From Desulfobacteraceae bacterium (GTDB lineage: Bacteria; Desulfobacterota; Desulfobacteria; Desulfobacterales; Desulfosalsimonadaceae), in contig JABZFM010000007.1 of the NCBI GenBank assembly GCA_014237465.1, forward strand, positions 62,001-126,000: a stretch of DNA of 64,000 nt, given 5' to 3'. Both the position numbers and the translations under genes were made by a program. Shown here piece by piece: positions 3,963 to 59,583 of the stretch (positions are counted from its first letter, which is position 1; every line of letters starts with the position of its first letter). The notes below the pieces were generated by a model that worked only from the letters and a program-made list of their open reading frames with translations, did not search any database and had not been told where the DNA came from.

Positions 3963-5135
3963 ATGGCACACCCGACCTGCCAGACAAAACCGGTGGTCTT
4001 CACCCCATTTAATATTATTTGCGGCATCATCTTACTCATCGGTGGCGTCATTACCATTTTAAGATTTACCAAAGGAATCGGCGCAGTCACCAACCTTGAC
4101 GACAACAACCCTTGGGGCATCTGGATCGGATTCGACCTGTTATGCGGCGTTGCCCTGGCAGCCGGCGGTTACGTAACATGTGCCACATGTTACATTTTCG
4201 GCCTGAAAAAATTCCGATGTGCGGTTCGCCCGGCGATCCTGACCGCTTTTCTGGGGTATGCGCTCGTCGTTTTAGCGCTTCACTATGATGTGGGAAGACC
4301 CTGGCGTCTGCCGTATCCGATTTTTTTCTCACAAGGGACTTCATCCATTCTTTTTGAAGTGGCTTTGTGTGTATTTCTATATCTGACTGTATTATTCCTC
4401 GAATTTTCGCCTGCAGCATTTGAATGGCTGAATTGGAAACGCGCGCGTTATGTTATCGGCAAAATCTCGCTGGTGCTGGTCATTTTCGGCATTATCCTTT
4501 CCACACTGCATCAATCGTCTCTGGGCGCTCTTTTTCTGATTGTCCCGTCAAAGCTTCATCCGTTATGGCATTCCGGATATCTGGCAGTGTATTTCTTTAT
4601 TTCAAGCATATTTGCCGGTATGTCCATCGTCATTTTTGAACACCTTGTGGTCGATCGATTTCTCCATGACAAGATTGACGAAGAACATGATATTGAAAGC
4701 CGGAACGTGGCGTTGGGGTTTGGAAAAACCGCCTCGTTTCTGATGGCCGGTTATTTAATGATTCAGGTTATCGGCATTGCCATTGATAATGACTGGAAAT
4801 ATCTCGGCACACGATGGGGACTCTGGTATCTGATCGAAATGATCGGTTTTGTGGGGCTGCCGGCAGTTGTTTATGCCATCGGTGTCCGGGAACGAAATCT
4901 AAAGCTGGTCCAGTGGACATCTTTCTGGACCATACTCGGGATTATTTTAAACCGGCTCAACATTTCCCTGGTTGCCTTTAACTGGCAGCTGCCGCTGGGC
5001 CAAAAATATTTCCCGAGTTGGATGGAGGTCATGACCACTGTTTTTATTATCACCATCGGTGTTGTTTTTTTCAAAGTGATTGCCACCCGGATGCCCATTC
5101 TGCATGCTCACCCGGACTATCCGGACGATCATTGA
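3963..5135 (+). CDS. hmcC: HmcC, NrfD-like integral membrane subunit
   Basis: This NrfD/PsrC-family membrane protein has 390 residues and many hydrophobic segments through its whole length. It is the presumed quinone- or proton-handling subunit of Hmc. The start of the protein (PFNIICGIILLIGGVITILRF) and the internal LYDVGRPWR-like stretch (HYDVGRPWRLPYP) are typical of the family. The TGA stop (5133-5135) lies on the boundary of a palindromic repeat: its last two bases are the first GA of GATGGC. The native end of the gene may therefore have been shaped by that insertion. hmcD follows only after the repeat. Confidence 0.93.
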   Translation: MAHPTCQTKPVVFTPFNIICGIILLIGGVITILRFTKGIGAVTNLDDNNPWGIWIGFDLLCGVALAAGGYVTCATCYIFGLKKFRCAVRPAILTAFLGYALVVLALHYDVGRPWRLPYPIFFSQGTSSILFEVALCVFLYLTVLFLEFSPAAFEWLNWKRARYVIGKISLVLVIFGIILSTLHQSSLGALFLIVPSKLHPLWHSGYLAVYFFISSIFAGMSIVIFEHLVVDRFLHDKIDEEHDIESRNVALGFGKTASFLMAGYLMIQVIGIAIDNDWKYLGTRWGLWYLIEMIGFVGLPAVVYAIGVRERNLKLVQWTSFWTILGIILNRLNISLVAFNWQLPLGQKYFPSWMEVMTTVFIITIGVVFFKVIATRMPILHAHPDYPDDH

Positions 5136-5298
5136 TGGCATCGTTAAAAGTCCCATCTACTGCGTTGCAGTGATTTTTCAGCCAATCAAGATACTACATG
5201 TATGATTTCTTGTCTGGAAAATCACTGCCCTTGCCAAATTTTATGGTATTGGTGAAACTTTTAATTTAGCCATCCGGAAACTTTTTACGAATCCATCA
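5133..5298 (+). repeat. MITE-like palindromic repeat, copy 1 (subfamily A), inside hmc operon
   Basis: The 166-bp element begins TGATGGCATCGTTAAAAGTC and ends CTTTTTACGAATCCATCA, which are imperfect terminal inverted repeats. An inner palindrome pairs GCAGTGATTTTTCAG with CTGGAAAATCACTGC. An internal GCCATC at 5269-5274 marks a second, inner end that is shared with the other copies. The closest relative is copy 3 at 18437-18577. It fills most of the 193-bp gap between hmcC and hmcD, and its first bases provide the hmcC stop codon. It has no coding capacity. Confidence 0.85.
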
Positions 5299-12008: not shown

Positions 12009-12175
12009 TGATATCTTTGTGAAAAGTCAGAGTCAGATGGCAAAGAAAAAAGCTCCACCATATCTTATAAAAATTGGCAAGGCGCACAAGTCCTGAGGAA
12101 CGAGGCGTACGAATGTACGTTGAGTGATGAAGAATGCAGTGCAACACAGAATTTGGACTTTTTGCGAAGCCATCA
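12009..12175 (-). repeat. MITE-like palindromic repeat, copy 2 (subfamily B), inside tmc operon
   Basis: Read on the minus strand it begins TGATGGCTTCGCAAAAAGTC and ends in GACTTTTCACAAAGATATCA, which are imperfect terminal inverted repeats. An inner end GCCATC lies at the complement of 12036-12041. The core is nearly identical to copy 4 (44310-44446), including the inverted repeat CGTACATTCGTACG. Its first bases form the stop codon of tmcB (TGA at 12175-12173). It fills most of the tmcB-tmcA gap, and short ORFs across it are artefacts. Confidence 0.85.
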
Positions 12176-13504
12176 TGTTTTATCAATGCACTCATAGATA
12201 ATATCTCCCAAAAACTTGATTTCCATGTCCAGGTCATAATATTTGACAATATCTTCAAGACCGGCGTGGCAATTATGGCACGGTGCGATAATAATTTTTG
12301 CTCCCCTGGCTTTCGCGTCAGCCAGTTGATCTGCCTTGACTTTGTTACCAATCACCCGTTTTTTTGAATACGGCGGACCGCAGTTGATCACACCACCGCC
12401 CGCAGCGCAGCAGTAATTGTGCTCCCGGTTGGGATGCATCTCTACAAAACGGCTGCATGTTTCATTGATCACGTAACGCGCCAATTCATGAAGCCCGCCC
12501 CCGCGAACAACATTGCAGGGGTCATGCAGGGTGACCGGGATATCATATTTCTGCTTTACTCTCAGCTTTTTGTCTCTAAACAATTCATAATAAAACTCAA
12601 TGGCATGAATCAGCGGCAGGGGGGACATTTTCCAACCCAGGTGACGATTCCCAACGTCATAGACGGACCGAAAGGCATGACCGCATTCTCCCATAACGAT
12701 ACGTTTGGTTTTCAAACGCATGGCCGCTTCAAAATGGACTTTTTTCAATCGGGCCGCCATTTCGTCATCCCCGGTATACATGCACATGTCACTGTTGTCC
12801 CACCCGGGGGTAGCGGGCATTGTCCAGTCCATTCCAGCCACATTCATAATCACGGCCGTCTGGTAGATCAACTGGGCACGAAATTTCGGCTCCGGCCCAA
12901 TCACCGAATAAAAAATTTCCGCCCCCTCTTTTTCAAGGGGTATTCTCAAATTTTCGATTTCGTCCCGCGCTTCATCTTCCTGCCATTGAAGGGTATCAAT
13001 CCATTCATCTTCTTTGACCCACATCTGATTCATGGTGACGGAATGGCTGTGGGCCGTATCCTGAATATACTGCGGAACAACCCCCAGCTTGTGGCAAATC
13101 CGGCGCATAAACAGCATCAGGTAAGCAATGTCTATTCCAAATGGACAATACATCACACAACGCTTGCACAGATTACACTCGGTAAACGCAATTTCACTGG
13201 CTTTTTTTATAAAATCAATGGAAACTCTGCCTTTTTTCTGTATGATTATACCAAGCGTCTGTTTCACCTTTCCGGCCGGAGAAAACTTCGGATCCTTATT
13301 ATTGGACAGGTAAAAATGGCAGGCGTCGCTGCAGAGCCCGCAATGAACACATGTTTCAATATAAATCTTCAGACGTGCCCCGCCTTCTTCTTCAAACATC
13401 CTGCGAATCACCCGGGTGACCTGCTCCGGGGTCAGTCTTTGCCCGCCTTTGTCAACGCCTTCATCCGGGATGGTTGCAATATTTGCAGGCGACTGTTTTG
13501 TCAT
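12173..13504 (-). CDS. tmcB: TmcB, cytoplasmic iron-sulfur / CCG-domain subunit
   Basis: This 443-residue paralogue of HmcF is the cytoplasmic HdrD-like subunit of the Tmc complex. It has two [4Fe-4S] motifs (C52/C55/C58/C62 and C110/C113/C116/C120-P) and CCG-domain motifs (HDPCNVVRGGG, YCCAAGGG, IAPCHNCHAG). Tmc is believed to link periplasmic hydrogen or formate oxidation, through TmcA, to cytoplasmic reduction steps of sulfate respiration. The stop codon overlaps the end of the repeat at 12009-12175. It lies 45 bp after tmcC in transcription order. Confidence 0.92.
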   Translation of the reverse strand: MTKQSPANIATIPDEGVDKGGQRLTPEQVTRVIRRMFEEEGGARLKIYIETCVHCGLCSDACHFYLSNNKDPKFSPAGKVKQTLGIIIQKKGRVSIDFIKKASEIAFTECNLCKRCVMYCPFGIDIAYLMLFMRRICHKLGVVPQYIQDTAHSHSVTMNQMWVKEDEWIDTLQWQEDEARDEIENLRIPLEKEGAEIFYSVIGPEPKFRAQLIYQTAVIMNVAGMDWTMPATPGWDNSDMCMYTGDDEMAARLKKVHFEAAMRLKTKRIVMGECGHAFRSVYDVGNRHLGWKMSPLPLIHAIEFYYELFRDKKLRVKQKYDIPVTLHDPCNVVRGGGLHELARYVINETCSRFVEMHPNREHNYCCAAGGGVINCGPPYSKKRVIGNKVKADQLADAKARGAKIIIAPCHNCHAGLEDIVKYYDLDMEIKFLGDIIYECIDKT

Positions 13505-14225: not shown

Positions 14226-15500
14226 TCAGGCCAAAAATTCTGACAATTCAAATACATAACGGCAATAGTTGCCGTCATTCTTGCCGCCACCGATGCCTCT
14301 TACCAGCAATTTGTTGCTGTCCGGACTGAATAAAGGACCCCATGCGGCTGCAAAATCATATGTTAACGGTCTGCCATCGATAACAATAAAAAACCGCCCG
14401 TTTTTTTCAACTTTGGCGGCAATATGCCGGCTATCCGGACTGAAAACCGGGGCCCATGCCATATCATATCCATTATCCCAGCATTGACCATCTGCTGCGA
14501 TATGCCATTGCCCTTTTGTTCTAGCCGCACAGGCGGTCCTTTTTCCGTCAGGACTGATCGCCAGATCAGTCACCAGGTTATTGAATGTCGAGGGCCATGG
14601 CTTGCCATTCACAGCAATGGTCCATTGACCGAATTTCGGAGCGACAATGGCGGCAATATTTTCACCGTCAGGGCTGTATTGATGATGCCATAACTGAAAA
14701 AAGCGTTCCTCCCATATCACCTCTCCGTTTCGGGCCAAAGCCCATCCGCCGTTGACTTTTACCGGAGCAGTAACCGAACCGTCTTTCGGATTGAACTTGG
14801 GTTTCCAGACCGATAAGAAATTTTTATCCCAGGGTTGGCCGTCCACAACAATGGTGTAATCATAGAGAGTTTTTCGAACCTCTGCCGCCAGATGCCGTCC
14901 GTCCGGGCTGAAACTCATATCCCAGACATTTAAAAAGTTATTGTCCCAGGTTTTCCCGTTGACTGCTACAGTATAGCAACCCTCCTGAAACTTGAAGATA
15001 TCTCCTGAATTAAACGGAATTGTCTGAACCACGGCTGCGGCATTTTTACCATCATGACTGACGGCCAGATTGCTGATGGAAAAAAAAGCCTGCTGCCAGG
15101 CAATGCCGTCTGATACGGCAAAATACTTACTCCCATCCTGTGCCGCTACGGTGATATATTTTCCATCCAGGCTGAAACGGGTGTCCCAGACAAACTCATA
15201 CCAGTTGCCCCAGGGCTGGCCCGCAACCGCCACGGTCCACATGCTGTTTTCCGAAACAATTGCCACCGGGCAATTTCCCGACCCAAACCTTAAATACCAG
15301 ATCTTGTCAAAATATTTTTCCCACGATACGCCATTTTCACACACTGAAAATGCCATATCATCTGTTTTTACAATGGCGGCAATCGTCTCGCCATCCGGAC
15401 TGACATAGGGCTCTTCGACCCACTCAAATGCATTCCGCCACTGACTTAAATCCGCAATGACCTTTTTCCCGACATTCCAGTCCCATTGTGAATAATTCAT
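14226..15500 (-). CDS. tmcD: TmcD, tryptophan-rich beta-propeller-like subunit
   Basis: This 424-residue protein has no signal peptide or membrane segment, so it is cytoplasmic. It is built of about nine repeats of 40-50 residues, each with a pattern like W..xFSPDG..IAA.V...G.W..AV.G..W (for example WDTRFSLDGKYITVAAQDG, WAPVFSPDSRHIAAKVEK). Such WD40/TolB-like repeats predict a beta-propeller. TmcD of Desulfovibrio is known as a Trp-rich subunit of unknown role. Here it is the first gene of the tmc run, whereas in Desulfovibrio vulgaris the order is tmcA-B-C-D. Confidence 0.85.
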   Translation of the reverse strand: MNYSQWDWNVGKKVIADLSQWRNAFEWVEEPYVSPDGETIAAIVKTDDMAFSVCENGVSWEKYFDKIWYLRFGSGNCPVAIVSENSMWTVAVAGQPWGNWYEFVWDTRFSLDGKYITVAAQDGSKYFAVSDGIAWQQAFFSISNLAVSHDGKNAAAVVQTIPFNSGDIFKFQEGCYTVAVNGKTWDNNFLNVWDMSFSPDGRHLAAEVRKTLYDYTIVVDGQPWDKNFLSVWKPKFNPKDGSVTAPVKVNGGWALARNGEVIWEERFFQLWHHQYSPDGENIAAIVAPKFGQWTIAVNGKPWPSTFNNLVTDLAISPDGKRTACAARTKGQWHIAADGQCWDNGYDMAWAPVFSPDSRHIAAKVEKNGRFFIVIDGRPLTYDFAAAWGPLFSPDSNKLLVRGIGGGKNDGNYCRYVFELSEFLA

Positions 15501-18436: not shown

Positions 18437-18577
18437 GATGACGTCGTTAAAAATCCCATCTACTGCGTTGTAGCGGTTTTTCAGGCACTCAATATACGAC
18501 TTGTATTATTTCGGGCCTGAAAAACCGCTACGCCTTGCCAATTGTATGTGAATGGTGGAACTTTTACCTTTGCCATC
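18437..18577 (+). repeat. MITE-like palindromic repeat, copy 3 (subfamily A)
   Basis: It starts GATGACGTCGTTAAAAATCC, two bases after the stop of the methyltransferase gene, and ends at GCCATC (18572-18577). The core has a long exact inverted repeat, GTAGCGGTTTTTCAGGC against GCCTGAAAAACCGCTAC, with a loop of about 28 bp. It resembles copy 1 (5133-5298) base for base over much of its length. A degenerate outer end may extend to about 18611. Confidence 0.85.
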
Positions 18578-18628
18578 CAATTCTATTACATTTTTTACCT
18601 AATCACCATTGATAGTTTCGTTACCGGT

Positions 18629-19288
18629 TCAGCTCCTGCGATCAGTTTTGGTGCCCAGAGGATACCCTTTTAAGAACCACAAAAACCGTTTTTTATTTAA
18701 CGATTCCAAGTGTGCCCTTCGGCCGCTGTCTAAAGAATCGGGCTTTTTCCTGCTCCAGTTCTTATAAACTCCTGATATATCAATATCTTTCATTATTTTA
18801 TGCAATGCGTGGGGTGTGTTTTCCAGATTAAGGCTTGATTGGAAATCCAGCAATGCCGGTTCGCCATCATCAGTTACCAGAATATTTCTCTGGTTTCGAA
18901 TATCCAAATGAACCATGTTCTGCTGATGCATCATCTGCACTATGTTTTCAAATTGAAAGAAATAGTCATCACCAATCAATTCAGAGGGAGTCTCTTTTAA
19001 AGTCGTACCGGGCATAAATCGGTAACAGACCGCATAGACATCAAGAAGAAAGGGCTCTGCGGGAATCCCTTTAATTCCTTTGAGTTTCTGCAACGCCTGA
19101 AATTCCCTTTTGACCATAAACCGCCCCCATGTTTTCCGGATAAAGGGAGGGCAGGGTGAAAAATCTTTAACTACCCAAATTTTCTGACCGCGTTGGAACT
19201 GATAAAGATCTGCATTTCCCCAGCGTCCTTTGGAAATAATTTTAAATTCCCCTGTTGCAAGATCCTTTCTCGTAAAAGGTTTTTCCAT
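18629..19288 (-). CDS. Kdo/RIO-like sugar kinase-fold protein, probably LPS core kinase
   Basis: The 219-residue protein has a small protein-kinase-like fold: an ATP-binding Lys (WVVKDF), a helix-C Glu region (VKREFQALQKL), the catalytic loop HLDIRNQRNILV (H-x-D-x4-N) and the metal site LLDFQS. This fits the Kdo kinase / WaaP / InaA group that phosphorylates LPS core sugars. It is the last gene of the lipid A operon, after lpxK, which supports an LPS role. Without a substrate assay it could also be another small-molecule kinase. Confidence 0.7.
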   Translation of the reverse strand: MEKPFTRKDLATGEFKIISKGRWGNADLYQFQRGQKIWVVKDFSPCPPFIRKTWGRFMVKREFQALQKLKGIKGIPAEPFLLDVYAVCYRFMPGTTLKETPSELIGDDYFFQFENIVQMMHQQNMVHLDIRNQRNILVTDDGEPALLDFQSSLNLENTPHALHKIMKDIDISGVYKNWSRKKPDSLDSGRRAHLESLNKKRFLWFLKGYPLGTKTDRRS

Positions 19289-19344
19289 TTTTCCGGCCCT
19301 TTTTGTGCTTTGCTTGAAAAATTAATGCGAAATATGCGCACCTT

Positions 19345-19456
19345 TGATGGAGTCGTAAAAAGTCAAAAAATAGCTATTTTCGGACTTTTGCCTTCTATAA
19401 ATTCAATAAGATAAAAAGACTATTTTACAAAGCACCGACTTTTTACGGAGGCATCA
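19345..19456 (-). repeat. MITE-like palindromic repeat, copy 7, forming the 3' end of lpxK
   Basis: This 112-bp element has terminal inverted repeats TGATGGAGTCGTAAAAAGTC (19345-19364) and, at the other end, the complement of TGATGCCTCCGTAAAAAGTC (19437-19456). The lpxK reading frame enters it from the right and reads the terminal repeat as V-D-A-S-V-K-S-R before stopping at 19420. It has the same family ends as the longer copies but a shorter, unrelated core. Confidence 0.75.
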
Positions 19457-20568
19457 ACTTTTTCTTTGATAAATTCTGAAAACTTCATCTCATCATGTTT
19501 AAAAGAAACCCTGATACCGACAACAACAATATCCATGGGGCTTTGAATTTTACCGGCGACTTTGACATAATCTTTTTCAGTGGTCACCAAAAACTCTGCC
19601 GAACATTTCCGAGCCTGGTTGACGATGAGACGATAATCTGTTTCCGTGTATTTGTGATGATCGTCAAGCGGAATCATTCCAACCACCGCTCCGGCCAACG
19701 CCTTCACCGTCCTGAGGAACTCTTCATTTTTAGCAATTCCTGAGAACACGAATACTTTAGACATTTTTAAAAATTCATAGTCTTGAGATGAATTCAACTC
19801 CGAACTGCCTGGAAAATCGCAATCCGTTCCGTTAAAAATCCCGCACATATAAGGCTCATGAAATGATTTAAATATCGGTTTCCCGGGCGCCATTTCGGAC
19901 AAGCTGTCAAAACTGCGGTTTGAATTATCGCACCGGGTTAAAACAAACAGGTCGCCACGGGAAAGTCCGGAAACCGGTTCCCGAAGGATGCCCCTTGGTA
20001 AAAGGTAGCGGTTGCCGAAAAGAGACTTATCATCCACTAAAACAATATCCAGATCCCGGTTCAAGCGGCGGTGCTGAAACGCATCATCAAATATAATAAC
20101 ATCCGGACAAAATTTCTCCACCGCTTTCATACCGATCTGAAAACGATCGGCACCAACCAGAACAGGAATATCTTTTAGCCTTTGAGCCATCATAAACGGT
20201 TCATCCCCGGCAATATCCGGTCCTAAAAGGATATTGTGCCCGTCACTGACGATCCCGCCCTTATTCTCCGCCTGTCCCTTATATCCCCTGCTGATAACAG
20301 CCGGTTTAAATCCGAATTCTTTTAACCGTTCCGCCAGATAAATTGTCATCGGGGTTTTACCGGTTCCCCCGACAGTTAAATTACCAATGGATATCACTCC
20401 GCAGGGAAGCGTTCGGGACTGGAAAACACCATGATCAAACAAAATCGCCCGGAGTCTTACGGCAATGCCATAAAGCGTCGATAGAATCATCAGCAGGAGT
20501 TTCAGCAATGGGCCTGCTGTCTTTTCTCCGGTCATTACCGCCTGGGCATTTTTCGTCATTCTGTTCAT
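19420..20568 (-). CDS. lpxK: Tetraacyldisaccharide 4'-kinase
   Basis: LpxK phosphorylates the 4' position of the lipid A disaccharide precursor at the inner membrane. The 382-residue protein has an N-terminal membrane-associated helix (LLKLLLMILSTLYGIAVRLR) and the Walker A motif GNLTVGGTGKTP. The family block IIFDDAFQHRRLNRDLDIVLVD and the late TTEKDYVK are present. The final residues (about 372-382, ASVKSRCFVK) are encoded by the terminal repeat of a MITE-like element (copy 7), so the native C-terminus was probably replaced. Confidence 0.94.
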   Translation of the reverse strand: MNRMTKNAQAVMTGEKTAGPLLKLLLMILSTLYGIAVRLRAILFDHGVFQSRTLPCGVISIGNLTVGGTGKTPMTIYLAERLKEFGFKPAVISRGYKGQAENKGGIVSDGHNILLGPDIAGDEPFMMAQRLKDIPVLVGADRFQIGMKAVEKFCPDVIIFDDAFQHRRLNRDLDIVLVDDKSLFGNRYLLPRGILREPVSGLSRGDLFVLTRCDNSNRSFDSLSEMAPGKPIFKSFHEPYMCGIFNGTDCDFPGSSELNSSQDYEFLKMSKVFVFSGIAKNEEFLRTVKALAGAVVGMIPLDDHHKYTETDYRLIVNQARKCSAEFLVTTEKDYVKVAGKIQSPMDIVVVGIRVSFKHDEMKFSEFIKEKVDASVKSRCFVK

Positions 20569-44312: not shown

Positions 44313-44446
44313 TGGCTTCGCAAAAAAGTCCAAATTCTGTGTTGCACTGCATCCTTCGTCGCTCAACGTACATTCGTACGCCTCGCTCCTCAGGATTTGT
44401 GCGCCTTGCCAATTGTACGAATGGTGGAACTTTTTTCTTTGCCATC
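44310..44446 (+). repeat. MITE-like palindromic repeat, copy 4 (subfamily B)
   Basis: It starts TGATGGCTTCGCAAAAAAGT and ends TTTTTTCTTTGCCATC. Copies 2 and 4 are nearly identical through the core (GTTGCACTGCATCCTTCGTC, CGTACATTCGTACG, GTGCGCCTTGCCAATT). It supplies the trpS stop codon and fills most of the trpS-scpA gap. The outer right end seen in copies 1 and 2 is degraded here. Confidence 0.85.
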
Positions 44447-44497
44447 TGAATTTAATTTTTGGATCATTTTACAATAAATTGCGAAGTCGTATCGAAC

Positions 44498-57150: not shown

Positions 57151-57807
57151 ATGAAAAATTTTTTGGCAATGTTGGTGATCGCTTTCATATTACTCATCAG
57201 TTATTCAACCGCCTGCCTTGCAAAAGATATGTATGTTGGAGATATTAACAAACTGAATCTCCGGTCCGGCAAGGGGGTAAAATACCGGGTCATTACAACA
57301 CTGGGCCCCGGAGAAAGAGTGACGGTCATCTCGACTGCCGGTGAGTGGACAAAAATAGGCACAATGGACGGCAACGAGGGCTGGGTGGTTTCCAGATATC
57401 TGACCAGTGAAAAACCCGCTAAAATCAAAATCGAAGATTTAAAAATTCAGATGGAAACACTGCAGGAACAGCTTGAGATTGCAGCGCTTGAAAAACGGAA
57501 ATTAAAAGAAGAAAATATCAGCTTGACAACCTGCCTGAATGAAAACAGCATAAAACTGGGAAACGTGGAAAAATCATTTAATGATTTAAAAACCGATTCC
57601 CGTGAATACATTACCTTAAAAGAAAAATATGATAAGATCGCCAAAGAAGTGAACAAAAAGGATGCCAGAATAAAATCATTGGAAAAAAAAGTGGATGATC
57701 AGTATATTGCTATTGCGATTAAATGGTCTTTGACCGGTGCCGGAATCCTTCTTGCCGGTTTTTTTCTGGGTTCCCGGACAAAACGAAAACGGTCTTCCCT
57801 CTTATAA
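57151..57807 (+). CDS. SH3-domain, coiled-coil membrane protein (YgiM/TIGR04211-like)
   Basis: The 218-residue protein has a signal peptide (1-24), a bacterial SH3 domain at about 25-92 (NKLNLRSGKGVKYRVITTL, GNEGWVVSRYL), a coiled coil (about 95-188) and a C-terminal membrane helix (LTGAGILLAGFFLGS) followed by a basic tail (RTKRKRSS). This order is that of the YgiM-type family in the cell envelope, whose function is not settled. It ends 22 bp before nadB. Confidence 0.87.
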   Translation: MKNFLAMLVIAFILLISYSTACLAKDMYVGDINKLNLRSGKGVKYRVITTLGPGERVTVISTAGEWTKIGTMDGNEGWVVSRYLTSEKPAKIKIEDLKIQMETLQEQLEIAALEKRKLKEENISLTTCLNENSIKLGNVEKSFNDLKTDSREYITLKEKYDKIAKEVNKKDARIKSLEKKVDDQYIAIAIKWSLTGAGILLAGFFLGSRTKRKRSSLL

Positions 57808-57829
57808 TATCGAGTGCAGAATTATTAAA

Positions 57830-59470
57830 ATGGAATACGAATCAGACTTTTTAGTTATCGGAAGCGGCGTTGCCGGCCTGCTGTTTGCCTTAAAGGTGGC
57901 GGACCATGGGACCGTCACCATAATCACCAAACGAAACATTGCGGAAAGCAACACCGCATATGCCCAGGGCGGCATTGCATCGGTTTTTGCCGAAACCGAC
58001 TCTTTTGAAGCACACATTAAAGACACCCACACATCCGGCGACGGTATTTGTAATGAGAAGGTCGTGGAAATGGTGGTCAAAAACGCGCCGGAGCGGATAC
58101 AGGAACTGATTGACTTAGGCGTAAAGTTTAACCGGAACAAAAACGCATCCGCCCGTCCAGCAGACCTGCACCTGGATCTCTGCCGTGAAGGCGGGCATTC
58201 CCATAACCGTATTGTTCACGCGGATGATTTGACCGGTCTTGCCGTTGAAGAAGCCCTGGTGGATCAGGTTATGAAGCATAAAAACATCACCGTATTTGAG
58301 GACCATATCGCCATTGACCTAATCACCAGATCCACACGCCTGCAGCGGGGGATGACCGTCACCACCCATGAAGATTACTGCTATGGTGCGTATGTACTGG
58401 ACCGAAACTCCAGTGATATTCATACATTCTGTGCCCGGACGATCCTGCTTGCCACCGGAGGGGCTGGAAAAGTGTATACCTATACCAGCAATCCGGACAT
58501 TGCCACCGGAGACGGCATTGCAATGGCCTACCGGACCGGCGCCACGGTTGCCAACCTGGAATTTGTTCAGTTTCACCCCACCTGTCTGTATCACCCGGAT
58601 GCTAAAAATTTCCTTATTTCTGAGGCGGTTCGTGGCGACGGCGGAATTCTGATTAATGCGTCCGGCGAACGTTTTATGGAAAACTATTCACCGTTAAAGG
58701 AACTTGCCTGCCGGGATGTGGTGGCAAGGGCCATTGATGCGGAACTGAAAAAAAGAGGTGATGACTCCGTCTTTCTCGATATCAGTCATAGAGACCCGGA
58801 TTTCATCAAAACCCGCTTCCCCAACCTGTACGCAAAATGCCTGACGTTTGGCATTGATATGACAAAAAACCCCATACCGGTAGTTCCTGCAGCCCACTAT
58901 ATGTGCGGCGGAGTTGCCACGGATATCTATGGGAGAACCAATATTCAGCGGCTGTTTGCCATTGGTGAAACCGCCTGCACCGGGCTTCACGGCGCCAACC
59001 GCCTGGCCAGCAACTCCCTGCTGGAAGCCCTAGTTTATGCCCACAATGCGGCTGACCAGGCGGTTGAAGATTCTGGAAATTTTGCTTTTGAATCCTCTCC
59101 CCAGCTGCCGCCCTGGGATGACCTGGGGGCCATTGACAGCGATGAAGTCATTATGGTGACCCACTCATGGAATGCCGTGCGCCGACTGATGTGGAATTAT
59201 GTGGGTATTGTCCGGTCAGACAAGCGTCTGGAACGGGCCAAACGGCGAATTGACATGATTCAGGATGAAATTAACGAATATTACTGGGACTTTAAAATTA
59301 CGCCGGATCTGATTGAGTTAAGAAACATTGCCACTGTGGCAGAATTGATCATCCGGTGCGCCACTCACCGGAAAGAAAGCCGGGGGCTGCACTACAACAT
59401 TGCGTATCCGGAAAAAAATGACGACCGGTGGAAGAGGGATACTGTTCTTCGCAGGCCGTTTGTCAGTTAA
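57830..59470 (+). CDS. nadB: L-aspartate oxidase
   Basis: NadB oxidises L-aspartate to iminoaspartate, the first step of de novo NAD synthesis; under anoxia fumarate serves as acceptor. From the ATG at 57830 it has 546 residues; a longer frame would overlap the SH3 gene and is not needed. It has FAD motif VIGSGVAGLLFALK, AYAQGGIAS, the substrate region EGGHSHNRIVHADD and LHGANRLASNSLLEAL. No nadA or nadC lies nearby. Confidence 0.95.
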   Translation: MEYESDFLVIGSGVAGLLFALKVADHGTVTIITKRNIAESNTAYAQGGIASVFAETDSFEAHIKDTHTSGDGICNEKVVEMVVKNAPERIQELIDLGVKFNRNKNASARPADLHLDLCREGGHSHNRIVHADDLTGLAVEEALVDQVMKHKNITVFEDHIAIDLITRSTRLQRGMTVTTHEDYCYGAYVLDRNSSDIHTFCARTILLATGGAGKVYTYTSNPDIATGDGIAMAYRTGATVANLEFVQFHPTCLYHPDAKNFLISEAVRGDGGILINASGERFMENYSPLKELACRDVVARAIDAELKKRGDDSVFLDISHRDPDFIKTRFPNLYAKCLTFGIDMTKNPIPVVPAAHYMCGGVATDIYGRTNIQRLFAIGETACTGLHGANRLASNSLLEALVYAHNAADQAVEDSGNFAFESSPQLPPWDDLGAIDSDEVIMVTHSWNAVRRLMWNYVGIVRSDKRLERAKRRIDMIQDEINEYYWDFKITPDLIELRNIATVAELIIRCATHRKESRGLHYNIAYPEKNDDRWKRDTVLRRPFVS

Positions 59471-59473
59471 TTT

Positions 59474-59583
59474 TGATGTCTCAATAAAAAGTCAGCTTTG
59501 GGGGAAGGTATTTTTTTAAAATCTTGAATTTAAACGTAAAAATATTAATAAGCAGTCATTTCTGACTTTTTACAAATCCATCA
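59474..59583 (+). repeat. MITE-like palindromic repeat, copy 6, after nadB
   Basis: The 110-bp element begins TGATGTCTCAATAAAAAGTC and ends GACTTTTTACAAATCCATCA, the family terminal repeats, around an AT-rich core. It starts three bases after the nadB stop codon, in the same orientation as the gene, as do the other gene-end copies. Confidence 0.75.

Follow-up and report, generated by a model that had tools for sequence, protein, structure and literature searches.

Introduction

MITEs that provide a bacterial protein with its C-terminus have already been published. In Erwinia carotovora, an RU-1 element gives the amidase ECA3499 its end and its stop codon (Delihas, 2007; PMC2759123). The account of this gene given there resembles the locus described here in that the MITE lies at the 3' end of a conserved gene, the native stop codon has been lost, a new stop is read within the element and the extension lies past the domain. 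As portrayed in that account, however, RU elements duplicate TA and have ends unrelated to those of our element, and the tail added by RU-1 is about 35 residues long, whereas here eleven residues replace five. MITEAba12, an element of 111-114 bp with an IS partner, is a further relevant case, as one of its copies fuses a gene to 31 element bases that end the gene; according to the portion of the article dealing with these insertions, it differs in generating 9-bp duplications with no trend in target sequence, and the fusion left a protein 398 residues shorter, unlike in LpxK (PMC6382973). In Coxiella burnetii, the functional annotated genes affected by QMITE1 and QMITE2 were all struck at their 3' ends, the elements overlapping functional gene ends by 1-50 bp, and the part of the report that covers these insertions gives no reason for this (PMC5896051). 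The QMITEs belong to other element families, and the same part of the report gives neither a target motif nor a coincidence with stop codons.

Here we analyze a stretch of 64,000 nucleotides from a Desulfobacteraceae bacterium (the window), in which the lpxK gene is a further example of a MITE-encoded C-terminus. For LpxK itself the insertion appears to change little; the locus is a clean example of mobile DNA rewriting the end of a protein, with the old end still readable alongside.

The end of LpxK is read from a 112-bp element

The features of the locus are as follows:

19420-20568, minus strand: lpxK, tetraacyldisaccharide 4'-kinase, 382 aa, ending ...KEKVDASVKSRCFVK
19420-19456, minus strand: end of LpxK read from the element, comprising the third base of V371, DASVKSRCFVK and the stop codon TAG
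19345-19456, minus strand: MITE at the lpxK 3' end, 112 bp, two 20-bp ends with 0 mismatches
19437-19456, minus strand: terminal inverted repeat nearest lpxK, TGATGCCTCCGTAAAAAGTC, source of the codons from D372 on
19345-19364, plus strand: distal terminal inverted repeat, TGATGGAGTCGTAAAAAGTC, the partner end
19457-19460, minus strand: target duplication on the lpxK side, AAGT
19341-19344, minus strand: target duplication on the far side, AAGG, one mismatch
19322-19339, minus strand: remnant of the native lpxK end, GCG CAT ATT TCG CAT TAA (AHISH*), from in-frame excision and sister alignment
18629-19288, minus strand: next gene, 219-aa RIO/protein-kinase-like protein, PF01163 30.4 bits

The 382-aa product is assigned as LpxK by the curated models PF02606 (303.5 bits, residues 23-371 matching profile positions 2-327 of 328) and TIGR00682 (209.3 bits, above the cut-off of 91.95), while its score against NF001892 (130 bits) stays under the cut-off of 327. 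The initial annotation had the lpxK frame entering a terminal inverted repeat and ending in DASVKSRCFVK, and both the coordinates and the frame proved exact: the 37 nt from 19456 to 19420 begin with the third base of V371 and continue with eleven codons and TAG, and each of the two repeat ends has 0 mismatches to TGATGNNNNCGTAAAAAGTC. The 20-bp repeat alone reaches through S377 to the first base of the R378 codon, and the interior of the element supplies the remainder of R378, CFVK and the stop. It had also been predicted that the C-terminal dozen residues would be unconserved. This is borne out by an alignment with 29 LpxK sequences of relatives, in which columns 372-382 are each identical in 0-4 of the 29 and become increasingly gapped.

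The native end of lpxK and the empty site

The claim that the native C-terminus has been replaced likewise holds, since excision restores an in-frame end and the restored DNA aligns with a sister species. Removal of the element together with one 4-bp copy of the target joins the frame to a protein of 376 residues ending in KVAHISH*, and the five native codons that were cut off are still present at 19325-19339. When excision lengths of 0-6 bp were compared, 4 bp gave KVAHISH*, 1 bp gave KVGAHISH* and the other five gave tails unlike those of relatives; 4 bp is also the duplication length of the family, and at the lpxK copy the duplication matches at three of four bases (AAGT/AAGG). The joined DNA aligns with that of one close relative (L033) from the lpxK end across the native stop to the start of the kinase gene. 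In the four closest LpxK sequences of the same genus (72-75% identical), the equivalent of V371 is followed by SNILH, ANMAAS, DHIVQ and KRLSY, and sister species without the element at the lpxK end terminate in SNILH*, DHIVQ* and KRLSY*. LpxK ends 4-6 residues past the V371 equivalent in the five closest relatives (L032-L036). The replaced part thus consists only of the five codons after V371, and the conserved domain match stops at residue 371.

A dispersed MITE family with 4-bp target duplications

The window contains 12 matches to the element end with at most three mismatches, compared with 0.73 expected, and none of 100 shuffles reached 12. The genome itself holds 42 matches to a 112-nt consensus-like form of the element and 310 matches to the end pattern at up to two mismatches, and among relatives the ends are present without mismatch in 50 of 60 genomes. 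The nearest named record for the element is a Desulfococcaceae metagenome assembly. Among 27 copies of 100-120 bp, which were picked by their ends alone and irrespective of duplication and therefore give an unbiased count, a perfect 4-bp duplication occurs in seven (1.04 expected from mixed flanks) and a 5-bp duplication in two (0.54 expected). In the placement sets used further below, the score that selected the far ends took the duplication into account, which inflates the proportion of good duplications there (36 of 51). The 112-bp element is a MITE: it is short, carries no transposase gene, has 20-bp terminal repeats and a target duplication, occurs in dispersed copies and has a reconstructed empty site that sister species match.

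Larger relatives of about 150-180 bp have the same ends. In the window, a longer related repeat is seen at 5134-5275, 18437-18578, 12022-12163 and 44323-44460, some of it with an internal hairpin and strings such as AATGGTGGAACTTTT.

Effect on the enzyme and the following gene

With the LpxK domain ending at V371, damage to the kinase is improbable; its activity would most likely not be affected by the new tail, and the insertion is probably harmless. Sequence alignment with the solved LpxK structures extends only to residue 339. By annotated coordinates, the insertion has lengthened the distance from the lpxK stop to the start of the kinase-like gene from 33 to 131 nt; in three close relatives (L033-L035) this gene starts directly after lpxK, as seen by eye. 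The longer gap, together with the folding of the inserted RNA (-25.4 kcal/mol for the 112 nt, z -3.29), makes it possible that the coupling of lpxK to the kinase-like gene is weakened.

In a second species of the same genus (G010), the lpxK frame ends in GGCGGCTTCGTAA, within which GGCTTCGTAAAAAG is the core of the element end, and TTTTTTACGGGATTATCA lies about 490 nt beyond the lpxK end, just before the kinase gene. This is likely, but not certain, to be another insertion with a degraded end, no more than about ten bases away from the first.

Proposed origin of the insertion

Very probably, an IS1182-like transposase moved the MITE into lpxK 16 nt before the stop, with a 4-bp duplication, and the resulting replacement of the tail was tolerated. 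On this proposal, the non-autonomous MITE would have been mobilized by an IS1182-like DDE transposase whose element has the same ends. Of the three frames that lead into the element end, one stops immediately at a TGA, another runs for eleven bases before a TAA, and the last is open; lpxK would have entered this last frame and read eleven codons to the TAG within the element, exchanging AHISH for DASVKSRCFVK outside the LpxK domain.

Two other accounts of the tail itself were weighed. That it is native to LpxK, its likeness to the repeat being due to chance or convergence, would be compatible with the open frame and with a C-terminus that is variable in relatives anyway. Against this stand the two perfect 20-bp ends, which lie 92 bp apart from start to start with the spacing of other 112-bp copies, the excess of such ends in the window, and the survival of the native tail beyond the element with an in-frame empty site that matches relatives, so that a native origin is scarcely credible. 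Instead of being carried along as a tolerated hitchhiker, the insertion could have been selected for a function, either as a hairpin terminator or attenuator or because the new C-terminus was useful. The stable fold, the increased distance to the kinase gene and the repeat-like end at the lpxK stop of G010 speak for such a role; however, the U runs form part of the stem instead of following it, the residues of the tail are not conserved and elements of the family occur at many unrelated places, and we regard selection as unlikely.

The IS1182-like transposase had 0 matches in the own genome, and the loci with PF01609 (6 matches) and PF00665 (2 matches) found there were rejected as source, the ends being absent from them at the strict threshold; the mover is for this reason deduced from relatives. 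A transposase search of the 60 relatives gave matches in 16. Autonomous-type elements with the same ends as the MITE are present in seven of their genomes (G004, G016, G001, G045, G033, G036 and G008) as bounded stretches of 1889-1918 bp with a transposase gene, which is broken by a stop in some of the seven. In G004, which belongs to the same genus, and in G016 the ends bound elements of 1906 and 1908 bp, each with one long transposase frame, and these frames are 68% identical to each other. The transposase scores over three Pfam cut-offs (PF13751, 60.8 against 25.1; PF05598, 34.2 against 23.1; PF01609, 33.2 against 23), domain models that point to the DDE type. NF033551 (IS1182) is the best of its four NCBIfam hits at 145 bits, below the cut-off of 270, for which reason we call it IS1182-like only. 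In eight other genomes, PF01609 loci yielded two bounded elements (L248, L253) and PF00665 loci yielded no bounded element. Two further candidates were discarded by eye: a 1049-bp stretch in G054 (L225 604-1652), in which what looks like a host gene, without obvious likeness to a transposase, lies between two elements, and an 887-bp pair (L148/L149), whose open reading frame is not transposase-like.

The element could also have been moved by a different transposase, as the IS1182-like one is absent from the own genome and the related IS1272, in the part of its description that treats transposition, replaces inverted repeats without duplication (PMC5678879), unlike the elements analyzed here, which duplicate 4 bp (sometimes 5) at TYA-ANNT-TRA. 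The same source presents features of the IS1182 family that agree with our elements, namely a related DDE transposase, an element of about 1.9 kb and, in some members, palindromic targets. In view of the seven genomes in which the same 20-bp ends bound IS1182-like elements, three of these with perfect 4-bp flanking repeats (L261 ATCT, L264 ATTT, L266 AAGA), a different mover seems improbable, if somewhat less so than selection for a function.

Target motif and stop codons

The target of the family is the palindrome TYA-ANNT-TRA; in each of four genomes analyzed, 88-100% of sites have A at -1 and T at +4. When the motif was trained on the other genomes, the real sites came out at a median of the 98th-99th percentile of permitted sites. 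TRA, the right half of the palindrome, is a stop codon (TAA or TGA), and the element itself begins with TGA. The gene calls used here come from a custom codon-usage caller rather than a standard program. None of the 51 elements of the own genome with both ends placed lies inside a gene, and of 44 gene 3' ends that face an element 12 extend into it, as opposed to 5 of 56 facing 5' ends. Seven of these 12 genes stop at the element TGA, three at the TAA in bases 12-14, lpxK at 37 and one at 76.

An insertion exactly before the native stop leaves the protein unchanged. In three genomes taken together, 9 of 90 insertions fall precisely where the native stop begins (5/51, 3/16 and 1/23; in G054, the 16 of 19 elements with flanks long enough were tested), compared with 0.39 expected under a uniform and 3.0 under a motif-weighted model. 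For a native stop 9-3 nt before the insertion point, 11 cases were observed (2.6 uniform, 3.7 motif-weighted), and insertions 1-30 nt before the stop are no commoner in these genomes than uniform (7 observed, 9.8 expected). A further genome, G018, which in this test served only for training the motif and is not among the three, shows no stop pattern: of 13 gene 3' ends facing an element one extends into it, and 0 native stops fall at 0 or at -9 to -3. The TYA-ANNT-TRA motif accounts for part of the excess of stops, and the remainder may reflect the survival of harmless insertions.

We tentatively suggest, giving the idea somewhat less than an even chance, that the elements are constructed so as to insert at stop codons and leave the protein unchanged, the target TRA and the element's own TGA swapping stop for stop in frame and the TAA at bases 12-14 serving the second frame. 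The lpxK site itself was rejected as such a landing, its native stop being 16 nt away. If the suggestion is true, gene 3' ends would be a safe harbour for the elements through the combination of target choice and end sequence, and lpxK would be the less tidy remaining outcome. A transposon with a stop in its target motif and another at its own end could spread almost silently in a compact genome, and stop-codon targeting would offer a testable reason for the unexplained clustering of MITEs at the 3' ends of bacterial genes, as with QMITE. In the open-licence literature searched, we found no account of a stop codon in the target motif of a MITE or IS.

Of the individual sites that follow, the first three were read by eye. 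At 5133-5298 of the window, the gene at 3963-5135 (plus strand) stops at the first TGA of a 166-bp element; when the element and 4 bp are dropped, the native TAA stands in the same place, leaving the protein length unchanged. Similarly, the gene at 12173-13504 (minus strand) stops at the TGA of a 167-bp element (12009-12175); once the element and 4 bp are removed, a native TGA takes its position. The gene between two elements at L225 604-1652 takes its last residues, MAQ*, from an element end. A 110-bp copy at 59474-59583 lies three bases past the stop of the gene at 57737-59470 (plus strand).

At L079 1345-1520 two head-to-tail elements share an AAAT between them; since the joined ends of an element look like the target motif, one element may insert beside another. 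Many contigs of G054 and G018 carry an element end some 70-140 bases in from the start, as if assemblies break at these repeats. Elsewhere in the window, a 424-aa protein (14226-15500) is encoded with a 33-nt DNA unit in four copies, which suggests a repeat protein, for instance a propeller.
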